Assembly: GCF_007827795.1 (NCBI RefSeq)
Contig: NZ_VITI01000001.1
Location: 1 to 64,000 of the forward strand
Length of the DNA: 64,000 bases
Reading direction: 5' to 3'
Source: Azospirillum brasilense
Lineage (GTDB): Bacteria > Pseudomonadota > Alphaproteobacteria > Azospirillales > Azospirillaceae
In this document: piece by piece, positions 55,358 to 63,316 of the stretch
Position numbering within the stretch: position 1 is the stretch's first letter
Layout of the letters: each line of letters opens with the position of its first letter
Program-made: the position numbers and the translations under genes
The notes under the pieces: generated by a model
Told to the model about the DNA's origin: nothing
Databases searched by the model: none
The model's input: the letters and a program-made list of their open reading frames with translations, nothing else

Positions 55358-55373
55358 TGTCGGGTCCCCGACA
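55358..55373 (+). promoter_or_regulatory. NifA upstream activator site (distal)
   Basis: TGT-N10-ACA: TGTCGGGTCCCCGACA, a perfect NifA-binding consensus and also a dyad. It is about 147 bases upstream of the predicted nifB start of transcription. Confidence 0.85.
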
Positions 55374-55414: not shown

Positions 55415-55430
55415 TGTCGGATTACCGACA
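55415..55430 (+). promoter_or_regulatory. NifA upstream activator site (proximal)
   Basis: TGT-N10-ACA: TGTCGGATTACCGACA. Its centre is 57 bases from the distal site and about 73 bases before the -24 element, within the usual 80–150 base range from the start of transcription. Confidence 0.87.
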
Positions 55431-55486: not shown

Positions 55487-55503
55487 TTGGCCCCGAACTT
55501 GCT
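55487..55503 (+). promoter_or_regulatory. Sigma-54 (-24/-12) promoter of nifB
   Basis: TTGGCCCCGAACTTGCT fits the -24 GG (55489–55490) and -12 GC (55501–55502) consensus with exactly 10 bases between them. Transcription should start near 55513, 43 bases before the nifB ATG. Confidence 0.88.
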
Positions 55504-55555: not shown

Positions 55556-57112
55556 ATGGCCAACGTTATTTCGCTCGACAGCATCCTGGGCGTGGGTGAG
55601 CTGAAGGCTCCCGCCGAGGCGCCGCCCGCCGCCGCCGCCGGCTGCGCGTCGTCCTCCTGCGGGTCGTCGGACGGCCCCGCCGACATGTCCCCGGAGGTGT
55701 GGGAGAAGGTGAAGAACCACCCCTGCTACTCCGAGGAGGCGCATCACTATTTCGCCCGCATGCACGTCGCGGTGGCGCCGGCCTGCAACATCCAGTGCAA
55801 CTACTGCAACCGCAAATACGACTGCTCGAACGAGAGCCGGCCGGGCGTGGTCTCCGAGAAGCTGACCCCCGATCAGGCGCTCCGCAAGATTCTGGCTGTC
55901 GCCAAGGAGATCCCGCAGCTCTCCGTCATCGGCATCGCCGGCCCCGGCGACAGCCTGGCGGCGGGCGGCAGGAACACCTTCAAGACCTTCGAAATGCTGG
56001 CGAAGAAGGCGCCGGACCTCAAGCTGTGCCTGTCCACCAACGGTCTGGCCCTGCCCGACCATGTGGACACCATCGCGAACTACAACATCGACCACGTCAC
56101 GATCACCATCAACATGGTCGATCCCGAGGTCGGGCAGCACATCTATCCCTGGATCTTCCACGACCACAAGCGTTGGACCGGCCTGGACGCCGCGAAGATC
56201 CTGCACGAGCGCCAGATGCTCGGGCTGGAGATGCTGACCTCGCGCGGCATCCTGGTGAAGGTGAACTCCGTCATGATCCCGGGGATCAACGACGAGCACC
56301 TGATGGACGTGAACAAGGCCGTGAAGTCGCGCGGCGCCTTCCTGCACAACATCATGCCGCTGATCTCCGACCCGGCGCACGGCACCCATTTCGGCCTGAC
56401 CGGCCAGCGCGGGCCGACCGCCCAGGAGCTGAAGGTGCTTCAGGACCAGTGCGAGGGCGGGGCCAAGCTGATGCGCCACTGCCGCCAGTGCCGCGCCGAC
56501 GCGGTCGGCCTGCTCGGCGAGGACCGCGGTTCCGAATTCACCATCGACCGCATCGAGGCAATGGGCGAGGTCGAATACGACCAGGAGGCCGCCCGCACCT
56601 ACCGCGAGCATGTCGAGGGCGAGCGCTCCGGGCGCCACGCCGCCAAGGCCGCCGCGCAGGCCGATGTGGTCGAAACCGTCGGCACCGAGGTGCAGCCGAT
56701 CCTGATCGCCGTCGCCACCAAGGGCGGCGAGCGCATCAACGAGCATTTCGGCCACGCCAAGGAATTCCAGATCTACGAGGTCGGCCCGAAGGGCGCCAAG
56801 TTCGTCGGCCACCGCCGCGTCGACCAGTATTGCGAAGGCGGCTCGGGCGACGAGGACGCGCTCGGCTCCGTCCTGTCGGCGATCAACGACTGCACCGCGG
56901 TCTTCGTCGCCAAGATCGGCGGCTGCCCGTCGCAGAACCTCAAGGACGCGGGCATCGAGCCGGTTGACCGCTTCGCCTTCGAATACATCGAGGAGTCGGC
57001 ATTGACCTACTTCAAGGACTACGCCGAGCGCCTCGGCCAAGGTGCGATCAACGCGCGCGAGGGGCAGGACGCGGTGATCCGCACCGGCGCCTTCACCGCC
57101 CTGCGCGCCTGA
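55556..57112 (+). CDS. nifB: NifB, FeMo-cofactor precursor synthase
   Basis: NifB is a radical SAM enzyme that fuses two 4Fe-4S clusters with a carbide to form NifB-co. The 518-residue protein has a Cys-rich N-terminus (C30, C35), the radical SAM triad C77-x3-C81-x2-C84 in ACNIQCNYCNRKYDC, further conserved cysteines (MRHCRQCRADAVG), and a C-terminal NifX-like domain (from about 385, LIAVATKGGERINEHFGHA) that holds the product. GGGAG stands before the ATG. First gene of the operon that continues to 63.3 kb. Confidence 0.97.
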   Translation: MANVISLDSILGVGELKAPAEAPPAAAAGCASSSCGSSDGPADMSPEVWEKVKNHPCYSEEAHHYFARMHVAVAPACNIQCNYCNRKYDCSNESRPGVVSEKLTPDQALRKILAVAKEIPQLSVIGIAGPGDSLAAGGRNTFKTFEMLAKKAPDLKLCLSTNGLALPDHVDTIANYNIDHVTITINMVDPEVGQHIYPWIFHDHKRWTGLDAAKILHERQMLGLEMLTSRGILVKVNSVMIPGINDEHLMDVNKAVKSRGAFLHNIMPLISDPAHGTHFGLTGQRGPTAQELKVLQDQCEGGAKLMRHCRQCRADAVGLLGEDRGSEFTIDRIEAMGEVEYDQEAARTYREHVEGERSGRHAAKAAAQADVVETVGTEVQPILIAVATKGGERINEHFGHAKEFQIYEVGPKGAKFVGHRRVDQYCEGGSGDEDALGSVLSAINDCTAVFVAKIGGCPSQNLKDAGIEPVDRFAFEYIEESALTYFKDYAERLGQGAINAREGQDAVIRTGAFTALRA

Positions 57113-57190: not shown

Positions 57191-57382
57191 ATGGCTTACA
57201 AGATCAAGGCTTCCGACTGCACCGCCTGCGGCGCCTGCGAGGCCGAGTGCCCGAACAACGCCATCAGCTTCAAGAAGGGCGCCTACGCCATCAACGCGGA
57301 CCTGTGCACCGAGTGCAAGGGCCAGTTCTCCAGCCCGCAATGCGCCTCGGTCTGCCCGGCCGACTGCTGCGTCCCGGCCTGA
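57191..57382 (+). CDS. fdxN: 2[4Fe-4S] ferredoxin FdxN
   Basis: A 63-residue ferredoxin with two cluster motifs: [12 protein letters not shown] (residues 10–21) and the expanded [18 protein letters not shown], where eight residues separate the second and third cysteines, characteristic of nif-linked FdxN. In rhizobia and Azotobacter such ferredoxins serve NifB or nitrogenase electron transfer. AAGGAGAG precedes the ATG. 78 bases after nifB. Confidence 0.95.
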
Positions 57383-57426: not shown

Positions 57427-57975
57427 ATGGAGCGCACCGCCATGCTGGACGAGGTGGATGAAGGCTGGCTCAACCGCCGTTACTACGGCGGCGACCTGCC
57501 GCCCGAGGCGGAGCGGTTCCTGCATCTCGCCGCCGCCAGCCACGCCGACGCCGAGGCGGCGGAGCGCTACCTCGCCCGCGCCGCCGAGCTGGCGCCGGGG
57601 CACCGGCTGGTCGATCTCGGCCATTACAAGTTCCACTTCTACAAGGCCAACCTGGACACCGCCCTGCTCTACGGCGAGCGGATGCTCGGCCACGCCATGG
57701 CGGCCATCGGCCTGAACCACACCGACTGGCGCATGGTCGGCCAGGATTCTTCCAGATCATTGGGGGCTGACTTTGCGGGTCTGGAGCCGGCCCCGCGCCT
57801 GTTCCTGTTCGCCCTGACCGCGGTCGGCTACCTGCATCTGCGCCTGGGCCGTCTGGCCGAAGGGCGCGAGGCCCTGAACAAGGTCCGGGAGCTGGACCCG
57901 AAGGACCGCTTCGGAACCACCCGCCTGCTCGCCGCCGCCGATCGTTTCGAAGCCGGCCCGGAGGACGATGCATGA
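57427..57975 (+). CDS. TPR-like nif accessory protein
   Basis: A 182-residue helical protein. Two stretches have TPR character: AAERYLARAAELAPGHRLVDLGHYKF (about 40–65) and LHLRLGRLAEGREALNKVRELDP (about 138–160). No cofactor motif. Small TPR proteins between fdxN and LRV/nifZ occur in other diazotrophs, and a role in protein–protein contacts during nitrogenase maturation is inference. The alternative GTG start at 57421 differs by two residues. It overlaps the next gene by 4 bases. Confidence 0.8.
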   Translation: MERTAMLDEVDEGWLNRRYYGGDLPPEAERFLHLAAASHADAEAAERYLARAAELAPGHRLVDLGHYKFHFYKANLDTALLYGERMLGHAMAAIGLNHTDWRMVGQDSSRSLGADFAGLEPAPRLFLFALTAVGYLHLRLGRLAEGREALNKVRELDPKDRFGTTRLLAAADRFEAGPEDDA

Positions 57976-58745
57976 GCGACGACATCGACAAGGCGCTGGA
58001 CTGGCTGGGCAACCCCGTCGATTGCGACGGCTGCGCCTTCCGCGACCGTCTGGCCGAGGGGCGCTGCGAACCGCTGCGCGCCTGCGTGCACGACCGCTAC
58101 GCCAAGCGCATCCAGCGCTTCTTCCAATGGAACGACGATCTGGCCGGCGAGCATCTCGACCATCCCTATTTCGAGGTCCGCGCCAACGCCGCCCGCTTCG
58201 CGCCGATCTTCATCGTGCCGCGGCTGATGGACGATCCGGACGAGACGGTGCGCGCCGCCGTCGCCCGCCGCCTGCCGCGCCGCCTGCTGCTGAAGATGCG
58301 CGGCGACCCCGACCGCGAGGTGCGCATCGCCGTCGCCTCCCGGCTGGAGGAGGCCGACCTCGCCCCGCTGATGCGCGACCCCGACTATTCCGTCCGCCTG
58401 CGCGTCGCCCGCCGCGTGCCCGAGGGCATGCTGCCGGCTATGATGCACGACGAGGACCCGGAAATCCGGCTGGAGGTCGCCAACCGCATCGGGCTGGAGT
58501 GGCTGATGAGCATGGCCTGGGACGACAGCGCCCGCGTGCGCATGGTCGTGGCCCGGCGCCTGCCGCCGGAAAAGCTGGCCGCGCTGATCCGCGACGCCGA
58601 CTGGTGCGTGCGTTTCGTCGTCGCCAGCCGCCTGCCGCCCGAAGACCTCGCCCCACTGACCGAAGACCCGGTGGACGACGTCCGCACCGTGGCGCAGAAG
58701 CGCCGCGCCGGACTGCCCGCCACCGGCGACCTGATCCCCGACTGA
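57972..58745 (+). CDS. 4Fe-4S leucine-rich-variant (LRV) protein
   Basis: A 257-residue protein whose N-terminus has four cysteines (CDGCAFRDRLAEGRC then LRAC; C-x2-C-x10-C-x5-C), the ligand set of the Azotobacter LRV Fe–S protein, followed by about eight LRV repeats of the form DPDxxVRxxVAxRL-PxxxLxxLMRD (about residues 65–235). LRV proteins are solenoids found next to nifB/nifZ in several diazotrophs, with function unproven. ATGA overlap with the TPR gene. Confidence 0.9.
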   Translation: MSDDIDKALDWLGNPVDCDGCAFRDRLAEGRCEPLRACVHDRYAKRIQRFFQWNDDLAGEHLDHPYFEVRANAARFAPIFIVPRLMDDPDETVRAAVARRLPRRLLLKMRGDPDREVRIAVASRLEEADLAPLMRDPDYSVRLRVARRVPEGMLPAMMHDEDPEIRLEVANRIGLEWLMSMAWDDSARVRMVVARRLPPEKLAALIRDADWCVRFVVASRLPPEDLAPLTEDPVDDVRTVAQKRRAGLPATGDLIPD

Positions 58746-58780: not shown

Positions 58781-59077
58781 ATGCGCGAGCGCGCCCGCGA
58801 TCCGAACGAACCGATCGAACTGGAAGACCGCCCCGCCTTCGAGGAGGGCCAGAAGGTCCGCGCCCTTCGCGACGTGCGCAACGACGGCACCTATCCCGGA
58901 CGCCCGATGGGCGACTTCCTGATCCGCACCGGCGATGTCGGCTACGTCAAGTCGATCGGCACTTACCTGCAGATGTATTACATCTACGGCATCGATTTTT
59001 ATGAGAAGCGCATCATCGTCGGCATGCGCGCCAAGGAACTCGAACTGGTCGACGCGCACTGCAACGATCCGCAGTGA
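58781..59077 (+). CDS. nifZ: NifZ (first copy)
   Basis: A 98-residue NifZ, needed for formation of the second P-cluster pair of the MoFe protein in Azotobacter. The SH3-like core shows FEEGQKVRALRDVRNDGTYP (residues 19–38), GDVGYVKSIGTYLQ and VGMRAKELEL. AAGGAG lies 6 bases before ATG 58781. It is too short to be called by length and is hidden in a longer open frame. Confidence 0.92.
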   Translation: MRERARDPNEPIELEDRPAFEEGQKVRALRDVRNDGTYPGRPMGDFLIRTGDVGYVKSIGTYLQMYYIYGIDFYEKRIIVGMRAKELELVDAHCNDPQ

Positions 59078-59115: not shown

Positions 59116-59427
59116 ATGAGCGACGCCGTTACCGAAGCGAAGAAGCCCGGCTTCATCCCGCCGCGCGAACCGCTCTACGACTGGGGTCTGGCGGTCATTG
59201 CCACGGTGGACCTGCACAACGACGGCAGCCACCCCAACGCCGAGGATGGCGCTCTGCTGGCCCCGAAGGGCACGCCCGGCACCATCGTGCGCATCGGCCA
59301 CGCCGAGGGCACGCAGATCCCCGTCTATCTGGTGGAATTCCCGGCCGGTGTCGTCGTCGGCTGCCTGGAGGAGGAGATCGCCCCCGCCGACGGCCGCCGC
59401 CGCGGCGTCCCCGGCGTGATGGACTGA
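59116..59427 (+). CDS. nifZ: NifZ-like protein (second copy)
   Basis: A 103-residue NifZ paralogue with the same order of motifs, LAVIATVDLHNDGSHP, GTIVRIGHAEGTQIP and VVVGCLEEEIAP, but a longer N-terminus and clear sequence divergence from the first copy (GYV replaced by GTIV). GAGGAG precedes ATG 59116. 38 bases after the first nifZ. Confidence 0.85.
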   Translation: MSDAVTEAKKPGFIPPREPLYDWGLAVIATVDLHNDGSHPNAEDGALLAPKGTPGTIVRIGHAEGTQIPVYLVEFPAGVVVGCLEEEIAPADGRRRGVPGVMD

Positions 59428-59467: not shown

Positions 59468-60619
59468 ATGATCTATCTCGACAACAACGCGACGACCCCG
59501 CTGGCGCCCGAGGTGCGGGAGGCGATGCTGCCGCACCTGTTCGGGGAGTTCGGCAACCCCTCCAGCCCGCACGCCGCCGGCATGGCGGCCAAGCGGGCGG
59601 TGGGCGAGGCGCGCGCCCAGGTGGCGGCGCTGGTCGGCGCGAAGACCGCGGACATCCTCTTCACCGCCAGCGCGACGGAGGCCAACCACACGGCCCTGAT
59701 CGGCACGCTGCGCGCCGTCGCGGCGGAGCATCCGGAACGCCGCCACCTCGTCACCACGGCGATCGAGCATCCCTCGACCCTGATGCTGGCGGGGGATCTG
59801 GAGCGGCAGGGCTGGCGGGTCACCGTCCTGCCGGTGGACGGCACCGGCACCATCGCGCTCGCCGACCTGCGCGACGCGGTGACGCCCGACACGGCTCTGG
59901 TTTCCGTCATGTGGGCGAACAACGAGACCGGGGCGATCCAGCCGGTCGGCGCCGCCGCCGACATTGCCCAGGCCCGCGGCGCCCTGTTCCACACCGACGC
60001 GGTGCAGGCCGCCGGACGGGTGCCCATAAAAGTGGACGCGGTGAACGCCGACCTGCTGACCCTGTCCGCCCACAAGATGCACGGGCCGAAGGGCATCGGC
60101 GCCCTCTTCATCCGCAAGGGCGTGCCCTTCACCCCGCTGATCCACGGCCATCAGGAGCGCCACCGCCGCGGCGGAACGGAGAATGTGCCGGCCATCGTCG
60201 GCTTCGGCGCCGCCGCCGGCCGCGCCGCCGCCATGGTGGCGGAGGCCGGGGACATGGCGATCCTGCGCGACCGGCTGGAGCGCGGCGTGCTCGCCGGCTG
60301 GCCGGGCAGCCGGGTCAACGGCGAGGGGGCGGACCGCCTGTCCAACACCAGCAACATCCGCTTCGCCGACCCGCAGGGCCGCCCGCTGGACGCGGAGGAA
60401 TTGCTGATGCGGCTCGACCGCGCCGGCATCGCCGTCTCCATGGGGGCGGCCTGTGCTTCCGGCGGCAACGAACCGAGCCACGTCCTGACCGCCATGGGCC
60501 TGACCCCGGCGGAGGCGGCGGCCAGCCTGCGCTTCTCCCTCAGCCGCTACAACACGGCGGAGGAGGTGGAATCGGTCCTCAACGAGTTTCCCGCGCTCTA
60601 CGCGCGGATCGCGGCCTGA
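59468..60619 (+). CDS. nifS: NifS cysteine desulfurase
   Basis: The 383-residue PLP enzyme supplies sulfur for nitrogenase clusters. PLP lysine K203 (LSAHKMHGPKG), conserved His in AIEHPSTL, and persulfide Cys C329 in GAACASGGNEPSHVL, the nif-type loop. MIYLDNNATTPLAPEV is the classic N-terminus. nifU is not adjacent, so the scaffold must be encoded elsewhere. 40 bases after the second nifZ. Confidence 0.95.
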   Translation: MIYLDNNATTPLAPEVREAMLPHLFGEFGNPSSPHAAGMAAKRAVGEARAQVAALVGAKTADILFTASATEANHTALIGTLRAVAAEHPERRHLVTTAIEHPSTLMLAGDLERQGWRVTVLPVDGTGTIALADLRDAVTPDTALVSVMWANNETGAIQPVGAAADIAQARGALFHTDAVQAAGRVPIKVDAVNADLLTLSAHKMHGPKGIGALFIRKGVPFTPLIHGHQERHRRGGTENVPAIVGFGAAAGRAAAMVAEAGDMAILRDRLERGVLAGWPGSRVNGEGADRLSNTSNIRFADPQGRPLDAEELLMRLDRAGIAVSMGAACASGGNEPSHVLTAMGLTPAEAAASLRFSLSRYNTAEEVESVLNEFPALYARIAA

Positions 60620-60657: not shown

Positions 60658-60867
60658 ATGAAGGTGATGGTGCGCAAGGCCGGTGAGCAATACACGATCT
60701 ACGTCGCCAAGAAGGACCTGGAGGAGCCCATCACCGAGATGGAAAAGCCGGGCCTGTGGGGCGGCTGGGTCAAGGTCGCCAACGGCTGGACGCTGGACCT
60801 GCCGGAGATGCCGGCGGACACCCGCCTGCCCATCACCGTCGAGGCCAAGAAGCGCGGCGCGGAGTGA
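60658..60867 (+). CDS. nifT: NifT/FixU protein
   Basis: A 69-residue small beta protein with the family pattern MKVMVRK…YTIYVAKKDLEEPI…GGWVKVANGWTLDLPEM. NifT is conserved in nif clusters; deletion has little effect in Klebsiella and Azotobacter. CTGGAGAG lies before the ATG. Confidence 0.92.
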   Translation: MKVMVRKAGEQYTIYVAKKDLEEPITEMEKPGLWGGWVKVANGWTLDLPEMPADTRLPITVEAKKRGAE

Positions 60868-60872
60868 CGGCC

Positions 60873-61157
60873 ATGGCCCTGACCCCGGAACGGATCGACG
60901 CCATCGCCGCCCTGGCCGGCAGACTCTTCGCGGACGGGACCCGGCTCGACGCCGTGGTCCGCGCCGTGCGCGAGGCGAACCCGGACCTGTCCAACGTCAC
61001 CGGGGCACACGCCGCGGTGATGGCGGAGGACGCCTTCCGGGAGGAGCCCGGCTTCAACCTCTACCTCGTGGACGGCACCAACCATTGCTGGCTCATCACC
61101 AACAAGCCGGAGACGGCGACCGGCGTGGTGATCGCGCAACGGGACGAGGACGACTGA
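60873..61157 (+). CDS. Nif-associated small protein (DUF6129-like)
   Basis: A 94-residue protein: a helical N-terminus (MALTPERIDAIAALAGRL) and a C-terminal part with FNLYLVDGTNHCWLITNKPETATGVVIAQRDEDD-like ending (about residues 63–94). It resembles the DUF6129 family that is found only in nif clusters as far as I know; no function assigned. Six bases after nifT. Confidence 0.75.
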   Translation: MALTPERIDAIAALAGRLFADGTRLDAVVRAVREANPDLSNVTGAHAAVMAEDAFREEPGFNLYLVDGTNHCWLITNKPETATGVVIAQRDEDD

Positions 61158-61171
61158 ATGAGGATCGCGGA

Positions 61172-62359
61172 ATGACGACGCCCCCGGACGACTCAGCCGA
61201 AGACGGCGAACTCGGCGACTACATCCCGCTGATCGACCCGGATATTTCGGAAGCGGAGGTGGCGGTCATCAGCCGCATCCTCACCTCCGGCAGCCTCAGC
61301 GACGGACGGATGACGGAGGGGTTCGAGAACGCCTTCGCCGCCTGGCTCGGCCGCGCCCACGCGGTGGCGGTGTCCAGCGGCACCATCGCCACGCTGATGG
61401 TCCTGAAGGCCTACGGCATCGGGCCGGGAGACGAGGTTCTGTGCTCCCCCTTCGGCTGGCATCAGGTGCAGCACGCCATCGCGCTGGCCGGCGCGGAGCC
61501 GGTCTTCGTCGACATCGACTACTGGCAGCACACCATCAACCCGGCCAAGGCCGAGGCCAGGATCACGCCACGGACCAAGGCCATCCTGGCCGGCAACGTC
61601 AACGGCCACCCCGCCCACTGGGACGAGCTGCGCGCGCTCGCCACCGACAAGGGGCTGATCCTGATCGAGGATTCGACCGAAGCCATCGGCTCCTCCTACA
61701 AGGGGAAGCTGGTCGGCAGCTTCGGCGACTGCGCGGTCTTCGACTTCTCCGAACCCGGCGTGCTGGTGACGGGTGAAGGCGGGATGATCGTCACCGACGA
61801 CCGCAACCTCGCTCACCAGCTCCGCTACCTGCGCCGCCGCGAGATGGAGCACCGCAACACGGTGGTCATCACCCGCACCATCCCCTTCCAGGCGGGCATG
61901 AGCAACCTGACCGCCGCTCTGGGACTCGTCCAGTTGAAGCGCCTGCCGGAGATCCTGGCGAAGCGCCGGGAGGTGGTCGGCTTCTACGAGGCGGCCATGG
62001 CCTCCTTCGAGGGCATCAAACCACCCTACAAGGGGCCGGGCGCCGACGACGTTCATCCGATGGTCTACGCCGTCCATCTCGGCACCCGCTTCACCGCGTC
62101 GGGGCGCAAGGCGGTGCTGGAGGATCTGTCCACCCACGACGTGGAGGCGTCCGACTACGGGCAGGCGCTCTACACCCAGCAATATTACCAGGAACGCGGC
62201 GCCAGCCGGGCCGACTGCCCGGTCTGCCAGAAAACGGTCGACCGCGTTCTGGCCCTGCCGCTGCACCACAAGGTCACCGCCGACGAGGTGCAGTTCATCG
62301 TGGAGACGCTAAAGGACGCCACCGTCAACACGGGGGCGGGCGCGGCGATCTATTTGTGA
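61172..62359 (+). CDS. DegT/DnrJ-fold protein lacking the PLP lysine
   Basis: A 395-residue protein with the whole fold of DegT/DnrJ/EryC1/StrS sugar aminotransferases: HAVAVSSGTIATLMVLKAYGIGPGDEV, VFVDIDYWQHTINP, LIEDSTEAIGSSYKGK, GEGGMIVTDD, and the closing CPVCQKTVDRVLALPLHH. The catalytic site differs: where the PLP-binding lysine (FSF-x3-K-x4-GEGG) is expected, this protein has Gly196 (DFSEPGVLVTGEGG), and the Gln stacking on PLP (EDAAQA) is Glu170. It should not form the usual internal aldimine. It follows nif genes directly, so it is probably co-transcribed. Confidence 0.85.
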   Translation: MTTPPDDSAEDGELGDYIPLIDPDISEAEVAVISRILTSGSLSDGRMTEGFENAFAAWLGRAHAVAVSSGTIATLMVLKAYGIGPGDEVLCSPFGWHQVQHAIALAGAEPVFVDIDYWQHTINPAKAEARITPRTKAILAGNVNGHPAHWDELRALATDKGLILIEDSTEAIGSSYKGKLVGSFGDCAVFDFSEPGVLVTGEGGMIVTDDRNLAHQLRYLRRREMEHRNTVVITRTIPFQAGMSNLTAALGLVQLKRLPEILAKRREVVGFYEAAMASFEGIKPPYKGPGADDVHPMVYAVHLGTRFTASGRKAVLEDLSTHDVEASDYGQALYTQQYYQERGASRADCPVCQKTVDRVLALPLHHKVTADEVQFIVETLKDATVNTGAGAAIYL

Positions 62360-62440: not shown

Positions 62441-63316
62441 ATGACCGACACCGCCGTCATCGACAGCATGGACACCGACACCATCGTGGCGGAGATCGCC
62501 GCGGCGCTGAAGGCGCGGGGCGTGGTGCCCTATCTCGGGCCGGGCGCCTTCGCGCTGCTGCCGGAGGCCGACTGCCCGATCCCGCGCACCTCGCTGGAAC
62601 TGGCGCAGCGGCTGAACGCCAAGGTCGCCGCACCGGGCCGCATCCGCAGCCAGTTGACCGCCGTCGCCCAGTTCATCGAATCGCGGCGCCACCGCAAGAC
62701 GCTGGACGGCATCCTGAACGAGATCTTCAAGCGCGATGTCCCGGCGACGCCGGTGCACCAGTGGCTGGCCACCCTGCCCGCCCCGCCGATGATCGTCGAT
62801 GTCTGGTACGACAACACGCTGGAAAGCCTGCTGACCGCCGCTCCGGACCGGAGCTGGGGCCAGATCCAGGGCCTGTCCCATCCGCAGGGCGTCGGCGAAT
62901 GGGTGAAATACTACGCCCCCGGCGGGGCGGAGGTCGAGGCCGGGGCGGCGTCGGGCTGGGAAACGCTGCTCTACAAGCCATCGGGCAGCGCGGCCCCGGC
63001 GGGAAACTACCTGATCTCCGACAGCGACTTCGTCGAGATCCTGACGGAGATCGACATCCAGACGCCGATCCCCGCCGTCGTGCAGGAGCGCCGGGCGGGC
63101 CGGAGCTTTCTCTATCTCGGCTGCCGCTTCGACCAGGAAATCCAGCGCACCTTCGCCCGCCAGATCGCCAAGCGCTCGTCCGACCGGCATTGGGCGGTGA
63201 TCGAAGGCGAGCTGTCGAAGAACGAGGCGCGCTTCCTGGAGCTGCAGAACATCACCCGCCTCGACCTGCCTCTGGACGAGGCCGTCCGGCGGATTGGCGA
63301 CGCGATGGGGACGTAA
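62441..63316 (+). CDS. SIR2-like protein at the end of the nif block
   Basis: A 291-residue protein with a Rossmann-type start VVPYLGPGAFALLPE (about residues 27–41), a PMIVDVWYDNTLESLL segment where SIR2 proteins have TTNYD, and a late RSFLYLGCRFDQEIQRTF like the FLGYSLxD of SIR2_2 proteins. The catalytic HG motif and the GAGxS are not intact, so NAD-dependent deacylation is doubtful. It may bind NAD or ADP-ribose. No nif role is known to me. Confidence 0.65.
   Translation: MTDTAVIDSMDTDTIVAEIAAALKARGVVPYLGPGAFALLPEADCPIPRTSLELAQRLNAKVAAPGRIRSQLTAVAQFIESRRHRKTLDGILNEIFKRDVPATPVHQWLATLPAPPMIVDVWYDNTLESLLTAAPDRSWGQIQGLSHPQGVGEWVKYYAPGGAEVEAGAASGWETLLYKPSGSAAPAGNYLISDSDFVEILTEIDIQTPIPAVVQERRAGRSFLYLGCRFDQEIQRTFARQIAKRSSDRHWAVIEGELSKNEARFLELQNITRLDLPLDEAVRRIGDAMGT

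Follow-up and report, generated by a model that had tools for sequence, protein, structure and literature searches.

The open reading frame at positions 61172 to 62359 (+ strand) of the window, the 64,000-nucleotide stretch of Azospirillum brasilense DNA that we analyzed, encodes a 395-residue DegT-fold protein that lies in a nif operon and carries a glycine (Gly196) in place of the lysine that forms the Schiff base with pyridoxal phosphate (PLP). Further features of the protein are Asp191, Asp167, Glu170, and a C-terminal tail, NTGAGAAIYL. It belongs to a family that is best filed as DegT-fold pseudoenzymes specific to nif operons. The loss of the enzyme active site in this family is well supported. 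Its exact role we infer, and we give even chances to the proposal that the protein is a conserved pseudoenzyme without PLP aminotransferase activity that helps nitrogenase to mature by binding or scaffolding.

The protein matches the DegT/DnrJ/EryC1/StrS profile PF01041 over residues 24–380 with 307.8 bits against a cut-off of 19.8, and the public annotation of its nif-linked relatives is DegT/DnrJ/EryC1/StrS family aminotransferase. None of the known NCBIfam DegT equivalogs (PseC, ArnB, DesI, WecE, and RfbH) scored above its curated cut-off, the best being PseC with 213.7 against 423.5 bits. Set against the motif FxFx3-K-x4-GEGG, the translation reads F190-D-F192-S-E-P-G196-V-L-V-T-GEGG, and E166-D-S-T-E170-A stands where EDAAQA would be expected. 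Gly196 aligns, in a region free of gaps, with the Schiff-base lysine of GDP-perosamine synthase, the same residue that is mutated in the K186A entry 3dr4; the sequence-only reading, which had put Gly196 at the PLP-lysine position, was thus correct down to the numbering. The AlphaFold model, computed with viral DegT homologues in the alignment, has a pLDDT of 89.3 and a pTM of 0.89 and supersedes a poor earlier model (pLDDT 53) built from Azospirillum sequences only. Its best solved structural match is GDP-perosamine synthase 3dr4 (Z 51, RMSD of 1.6 Å over 365 residues, 33% identity), and the sugar-aminotransferase fold is therefore predicted to be intact and full length.

We collected family loci from named genomes (27 loci) and added relatives found at the level of order, class, and phylum as well as on Methylococcus, Paraburkholderia, and Bradyrhizobium plasmids, giving 98 distinct near-full-length members of more than 46% identity from alpha-, beta-, and gammaproteobacteria. 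Not one of the 98 has lysine at position 196, where we observe Gly in 48, Ser in 24, Leu in 18, Val in 5, and Cys, Ala, and Gln in one each. Histidine, the ColD/E1 signature, is likewise found in 0/98. Viral contigs supplied the controls, 77 distinct DegT homologues selected by motifs that exclude the lysine position; 75 of these have Lys, one has His, and one is an alignment artefact. These counts bear out the earlier view that the protein is neither an ordinary PLP aminotransferase nor a ColD, and a search for relatives that keep the lysine returned none among the 98. Conservation of the glycine itself, which the same reading had raised, did not hold, with just under half of the members carrying it. 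The entropy at position 196 exceeds that of about four-fifths of all positions, while Asp191, Pro195, Gly201, and Gly203 around it are invariant. Given the range of residues found, the defining feature is the loss of lysine and not the gain of glycine, and we rejected Gly196 as a functional replacement for lysine since the position drifts. One Azospirillum member (L044, genome G015) has Cys there, its nearest relatives having Gly. The same genome as the window holds three further DegT paralogues, two with Lys and a third with His; the last (L004, G000:C20:20632-21252, SFYPAHHITMGEGG) resembles the ColD/RfbH dehydratases in this residue.

In the tree, the nif-linked proteins form one clade with a support of 100/100 that adjoins perosamine-type, lysine-bearing proteins, although the exact sister is unsure because the branches are long. 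This single clade, together with the 0/98 against 75/77 count, is most simply explained if the lysine was lost once, in the ancestor of the family, before its spread through the alpha-, beta-, and gammaproteobacteria.

The lysine is not the only cofactor ligand to have changed. In the DegT-fold enzyme Spr1654, Ser194 and Thr59 hold the PLP phosphate, Asp170 is the partner of the ring nitrogen, and Tyr345 contacts O3 (PMC5936713). Ser194 lies five residues before the lysine of Spr1654, just as Asp191 lies five before Gly196, and position 191 is Asp in 86/86 family members as against Ser in 58/58 controls. On these alignments, aspartate at this position is peculiar to the nif family; serine is not universal elsewhere, as the two closest lysine-bearing relatives (L132 and L133) have Ala. 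This exchange, which the sequence-only reading did not mention, is the truly odd second change besides Gly196. At position 330, almost every family member has Gly, Cys, or Ser instead of the O3-contacting aromatic that follows the conserved histidine of the C-terminal domain in the controls (Phe or Tyr in 56/58), and positions 240–242 are mostly Gln-Ala-Gly in the family as opposed to mostly Asn-(Phe/Tyr)-Arg in the controls. Of the features expected of a PLP enzyme, three are therefore absent (Schiff-base lysine, phosphate serine, and O3 aromatic), whereas Asp167, the partner of PLP N1, is invariant in family and controls alike, and Thr71 and the stacking aromatic at position 96 are retained. 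The earlier reading also singled out Glu170 in place of a conserved glutamine. The residue was named correctly, but it is not an unusual change: the controls divide into 35 Gln and 31 Glu, and GDP-perosamine synthase itself has Glu, so Glu170 is uninformative and we rejected it as a diagnostic substitution.

The family is conserved well beyond these positions. Invariant among 86 members are Tyr117, Trp118, Glu166, Asp167, Ser168, Glu170, Asp191, Pro195, Lys283, Arg306, Gln336, and His365, and in the tail Asn386, Gly388-Ala-Gly390, and Ala392-Ile-Tyr394 (N-x-GAGAAIY). The tail reaches beyond the point where the aligned controls stop, and the model predicts it to be disordered (pLDDT of about 39), which would suit a docking peptide; this is a low value that may be explained by the small number of tail-bearing sequences in the alignment. 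Against close relatives, dN/dS for degT is 0.09–0.31, within the range of sir2 and nifS2 from the same operon, which indicates that degT is under purifying selection. With lysine in 0/98 members as compared with 75/77 controls, this range also argues that the lysine was not lost by chance or decay.

The gene sits near the end of a same-strand run with short gaps, nifB-fdxN-TPR-LRV/FeS-nifZ-nifZ-nifS2-nifT-DUF6129-degT-SIR2, all on the + strand. The presumed operon opens with nifB (55556–57112, TIGR01290 over cut-off) and continues with a 63-residue fdxN-type ferredoxin (57191–57382), a TPR-repeat protein (57427–57975, its start an assumed ATG within the open reading frame), an LRV protein with a 4Fe-4S cluster domain (57972–58745, matching LRV and LRV_FeS), a tandem pair of nifZ genes (58781–59077 and 59116–59427), a second NifS-like cysteine desulfurase, nifS2, with its PLP lysine (SAHK) and active-site cysteine intact (59468–60619), and nifT (60658–60867, TIGR02934). 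Between nifT and degT lies a gene for a small DUF6129-type protein (60873–61157), so that degT does not directly adjoin nifT. In nearly every member, the gene for this candidate partner immediately precedes degT; the small protein has a conserved HC motif, often HCW. In the open-access literature that we searched, no paper was found on DUF6129 by name. Downstream of degT, a SIR2-like (SIR2_2) protein (62441–63316) travels with the operon and accompanies it across alpha-, beta-, and gammaproteobacteria; the nif cluster of Zymomonas also has a SIR2-like protein (PMC8594446), and a role in nitrogen fixation for the SIR2_2-like protein of the operon seems to be undescribed.

Immediately before nifB are two near-palindromic copies of the NifA upstream activator site TGT-N10-ACA on the + strand (TGTCGGGTCCCCGACA at 55358–55373 and TGTCGGATTACCGACA at 55415–55430), a pattern that is not rare in the window, with four found and four expected. 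They are followed by a sigma-54 (−24/−12) promoter at 55487–55503 (+ strand, TTGGCCCCGAACTTGCT), a motif with no second exact match in the window. Because the two sites and the exact promoter precede nifB, NifA control of the presumed operon is likely, and it may extend to degT through the run of same-strand genes with short gaps. A study of NifA in Paraburkholderia phymatum reports nifT and nifB as NifA-controlled; the table passages of that study that we consulted contain no DegT-annotated gene.

Other members of the Azospirillales share this gene order, as do Methylococcus, Paraburkholderia, and Bradyrhizobium; among the genes added to it are those for an IscA-type protein, DUF3024, and a 2Fe-2S protein. 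Across 82 genomes of the order, degT occurs in 57, every one of which has nifB, and in none of the 16 genomes that lack nifB; the suspected link to nitrogen fixation is thus supported. Nine of the 66 nifB-positive genomes do not have degT. In a draw from the whole phylum, degT is present in 6/43 genomes with nifB as against 0/355 without. Among the genomes searched, the nif-linked degT is restricted to those with nifB, and since many diazotrophs do without it, it is an accessory gene tied to nitrogen fixation and not a universal requirement for it.

Two features of the neighborhood co-occur closely with degT. Among 49 nifB-positive genomes, the tandem nifZ pair is found in 18/19 with DegT versus 1/30 without, and DUF6129 in 18/19 versus 4/30, the latter being weaker matches; the Fisher p-values for these co-occurrences are very small but are only a guide, as the genomes are related and the counts are not phylogenetically independent. 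The sole DegT-negative genome with the tandem pair (G078) is missing the end of the operon from within nifS2, and three more DegT-negative, nifB-positive genomes have a second NifZ match that is weaker and non-adjacent. The DUF6129-type reading frame and the matched start of degT are separated by anything from an overlap of a few bases to a gap of about 45 nucleotides in all checked loci except that of G754. This genome (L088/L092) holds the most divergent family member, with Gln at the lysine position, NifT encoded directly upstream of degT, a single NifZ, no DUF6129, and nifB about 4 kb away. Other arrangements vary as well. In G033 (L029/L219, apparently Azospirillum sp. TSH64), nifA-nifB-fdxN is separated by about 612 kb from the rest of the nif operon, an intact block from TPR to sir2; G1149, of the Bradyrhizobium group, has degT, DUF6129, and the nifZ pair each in two copies; and on a plasmid of Bradyrhizobium sp. 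BWA-3-5 (NZ_CP136627.1, L083) degT is frameshifted and carries no annotation.

A role in nitrogenase assembly would fit this neighborhood best. We propose that the family ancestor, with the complete fold of a perosamine-synthase-type sugar aminotransferase, lost or exchanged the lysine that binds the cofactor, the serine that binds the phosphate, and aromatics on the substrate side, and that the nif-linked protein would thereby have abandoned PLP chemistry. Expressed from the NifA/sigma-54 promoter of nifB, it would work by binding or scaffolding, probably as a dimer; its likely partner would be the DUF6129 protein, whose gene lies directly upstream, and the invariant tail N-x-GAGAAIY would be a likely docking peptide. 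NifZ functions in P-cluster maturation, and the site of action may be the NifZ-dependent branch of MoFe-protein maturation. Several points weigh against this reading: the lysine-to-alanine mutants 3dr4, 4oca, and 3nys were all solved with ligand bound, so loss of the lysine alone does not abolish binding; a cofactor or another ring-shaped ligand might still bind since Asp167, Thr71, and the aromatic at position 96 are kept; and the G754 member has neither the tandem nifZ pair nor DUF6129. More tentatively, and at clearly less than even odds, the PLP-free DegT-fold protein and DUF6129 may form a nitrogenase maturation module alongside the tandem NifZ pair, perhaps with the first DegT-fold protein known not to use PLP.

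The main alternative to a scaffold role is that Asp167, Glu170, and Asp191 create a new ligand or metal site, a remodeled acidic pocket devoted to PLP-independent catalysis or to binding a small molecule or metal for nitrogenase cofactor supply. The invariance of these three residues along with Ser168, Lys283, Gln336, and His365 among 86 members seems to go beyond the needs of a pure scaffold inside the former active site, but no DegT protein is known to have such a function, and we regard this reading as unlikely. Continued use of PLP or PMP without the lysine, in the manner of the ColD/E1 dehydratases and perhaps on a nucleotide sugar destined for a protective glycan produced while nitrogen is fixed, is less probable still. 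The retained Asp167, Thr71, and stacking aromatic would suit it, and lysine-less DegT enzymes bearing histidine do exist (ColD, and L004 in the same genome); against it, position 196 never has His and drifts freely among Gly, Ser, Leu, and Val, Asp occupies the phosphate-serine position throughout the family, and Gly, Cys, or Ser has nearly always taken the place of the O3-contacting aromatic. The sequence-only reading had offered a non-PLP or PMP-only enzyme or a binding protein: the changes at Asp191 and position 330 make the PMP-only option less likely. Its suggestion of a protective glycan found no support, as sugar and glycan genes are absent beside degT.

Lysine-less subunits of the same broad fold are known from SPTLC1 and GcvPA, fold-type-I proteins that have lost the PLP lysine, retain a role, and pair with a lysine-bearing enzyme that is a close paralogue. 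By analogy, the nif-linked protein could be a regulatory subunit that serves one of the operon's fold-type-I enzymes with a PLP lysine, for instance the second NifS, whose gene lies three genes upstream in the window and close by in many relatives. We consider this improbable: the operon holds no lysine-bearing DegT paralogue, NifS falls in a different subfamily (class V), the nearest NifS-like match in several genera is just 29–32% identical and lies beyond degT (L066–L075), and in L091 the stretch has no such match. That PLP binds through another lysine is very improbable. The chief invariant candidate, Lys283, is constant in 86 members and variable in controls (Lys381 is nearly invariant), yet it aligns with a threonine of perosamine synthase past a long helix toward the small domain, the phosphate site is altered, and we know of no precedent for a relocated PLP lysine in the DegT fold. 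Finally, the protein might be a decaying former aminotransferase that survives in the operon by chance, as the missing key catalytic residue and the frameshifted Bradyrhizobium plasmid copy could suggest. The dN/dS values, the residues invariant over three proteobacterial classes, and the retention of degT in 57 of the 66 nifB-positive genomes of the order bring this idea close to refutation, and decay of a single copy is rejected by the family-wide conservation and dN/dS.

Compared with known systems, the pseudoenzyme family that we propose is closest in structure to GDP-perosamine synthase (3bn1, 3dr4, and 3dr7) and ArnB, to which it is similar over the whole fold (Z 48–51, 31–33% identity, about 365 residues), sharing Glu170 with the former. 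It differs from both in the absent Schiff-base lysine, the Ser-to-Asp phosphate site, the lost pocket aromatics, the added C-terminal tail, and the location of its gene in a nif operon rather than in a polysaccharide gene cluster. The ColD/E1 (RfbH-type) dehydratases share the DegT fold without the PLP lysine but retain the PMP site and bear His where the lysine would be, whereas the nif-linked proteins have mainly Gly, Ser, Leu, or Val and an altered phosphate site. The protein resembles NifT, NifZ, NifW, and the LRV protein in occurring in some diazotrophs only and probably also in being encoded in a NifA-controlled maturation operon, although none of these has an aminotransferase fold. We found no paper that describes the nif-linked degT, a weak negative as the search covered open-access literature only.

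The database label "aminotransferase" masks what appears to be a dedicated nitrogen-fixation factor, carried by agriculturally important relatives of Azospirillum, Bradyrhizobium, and Paraburkholderia. If a role in nitrogenase maturation is true, degT would be a candidate for gene lists used in nif transfer and for studies of NifZ, and the family would be a clear example of a non-PLP protein derived from a sugar aminotransferase fold, for which a natural series of substitutions at the lost lysine is available. That the protein is kept in nif operons across many unrelated bacteria suggests that nitrogenase assembly has an overlooked helper, either non-enzymatic or re-purposed.
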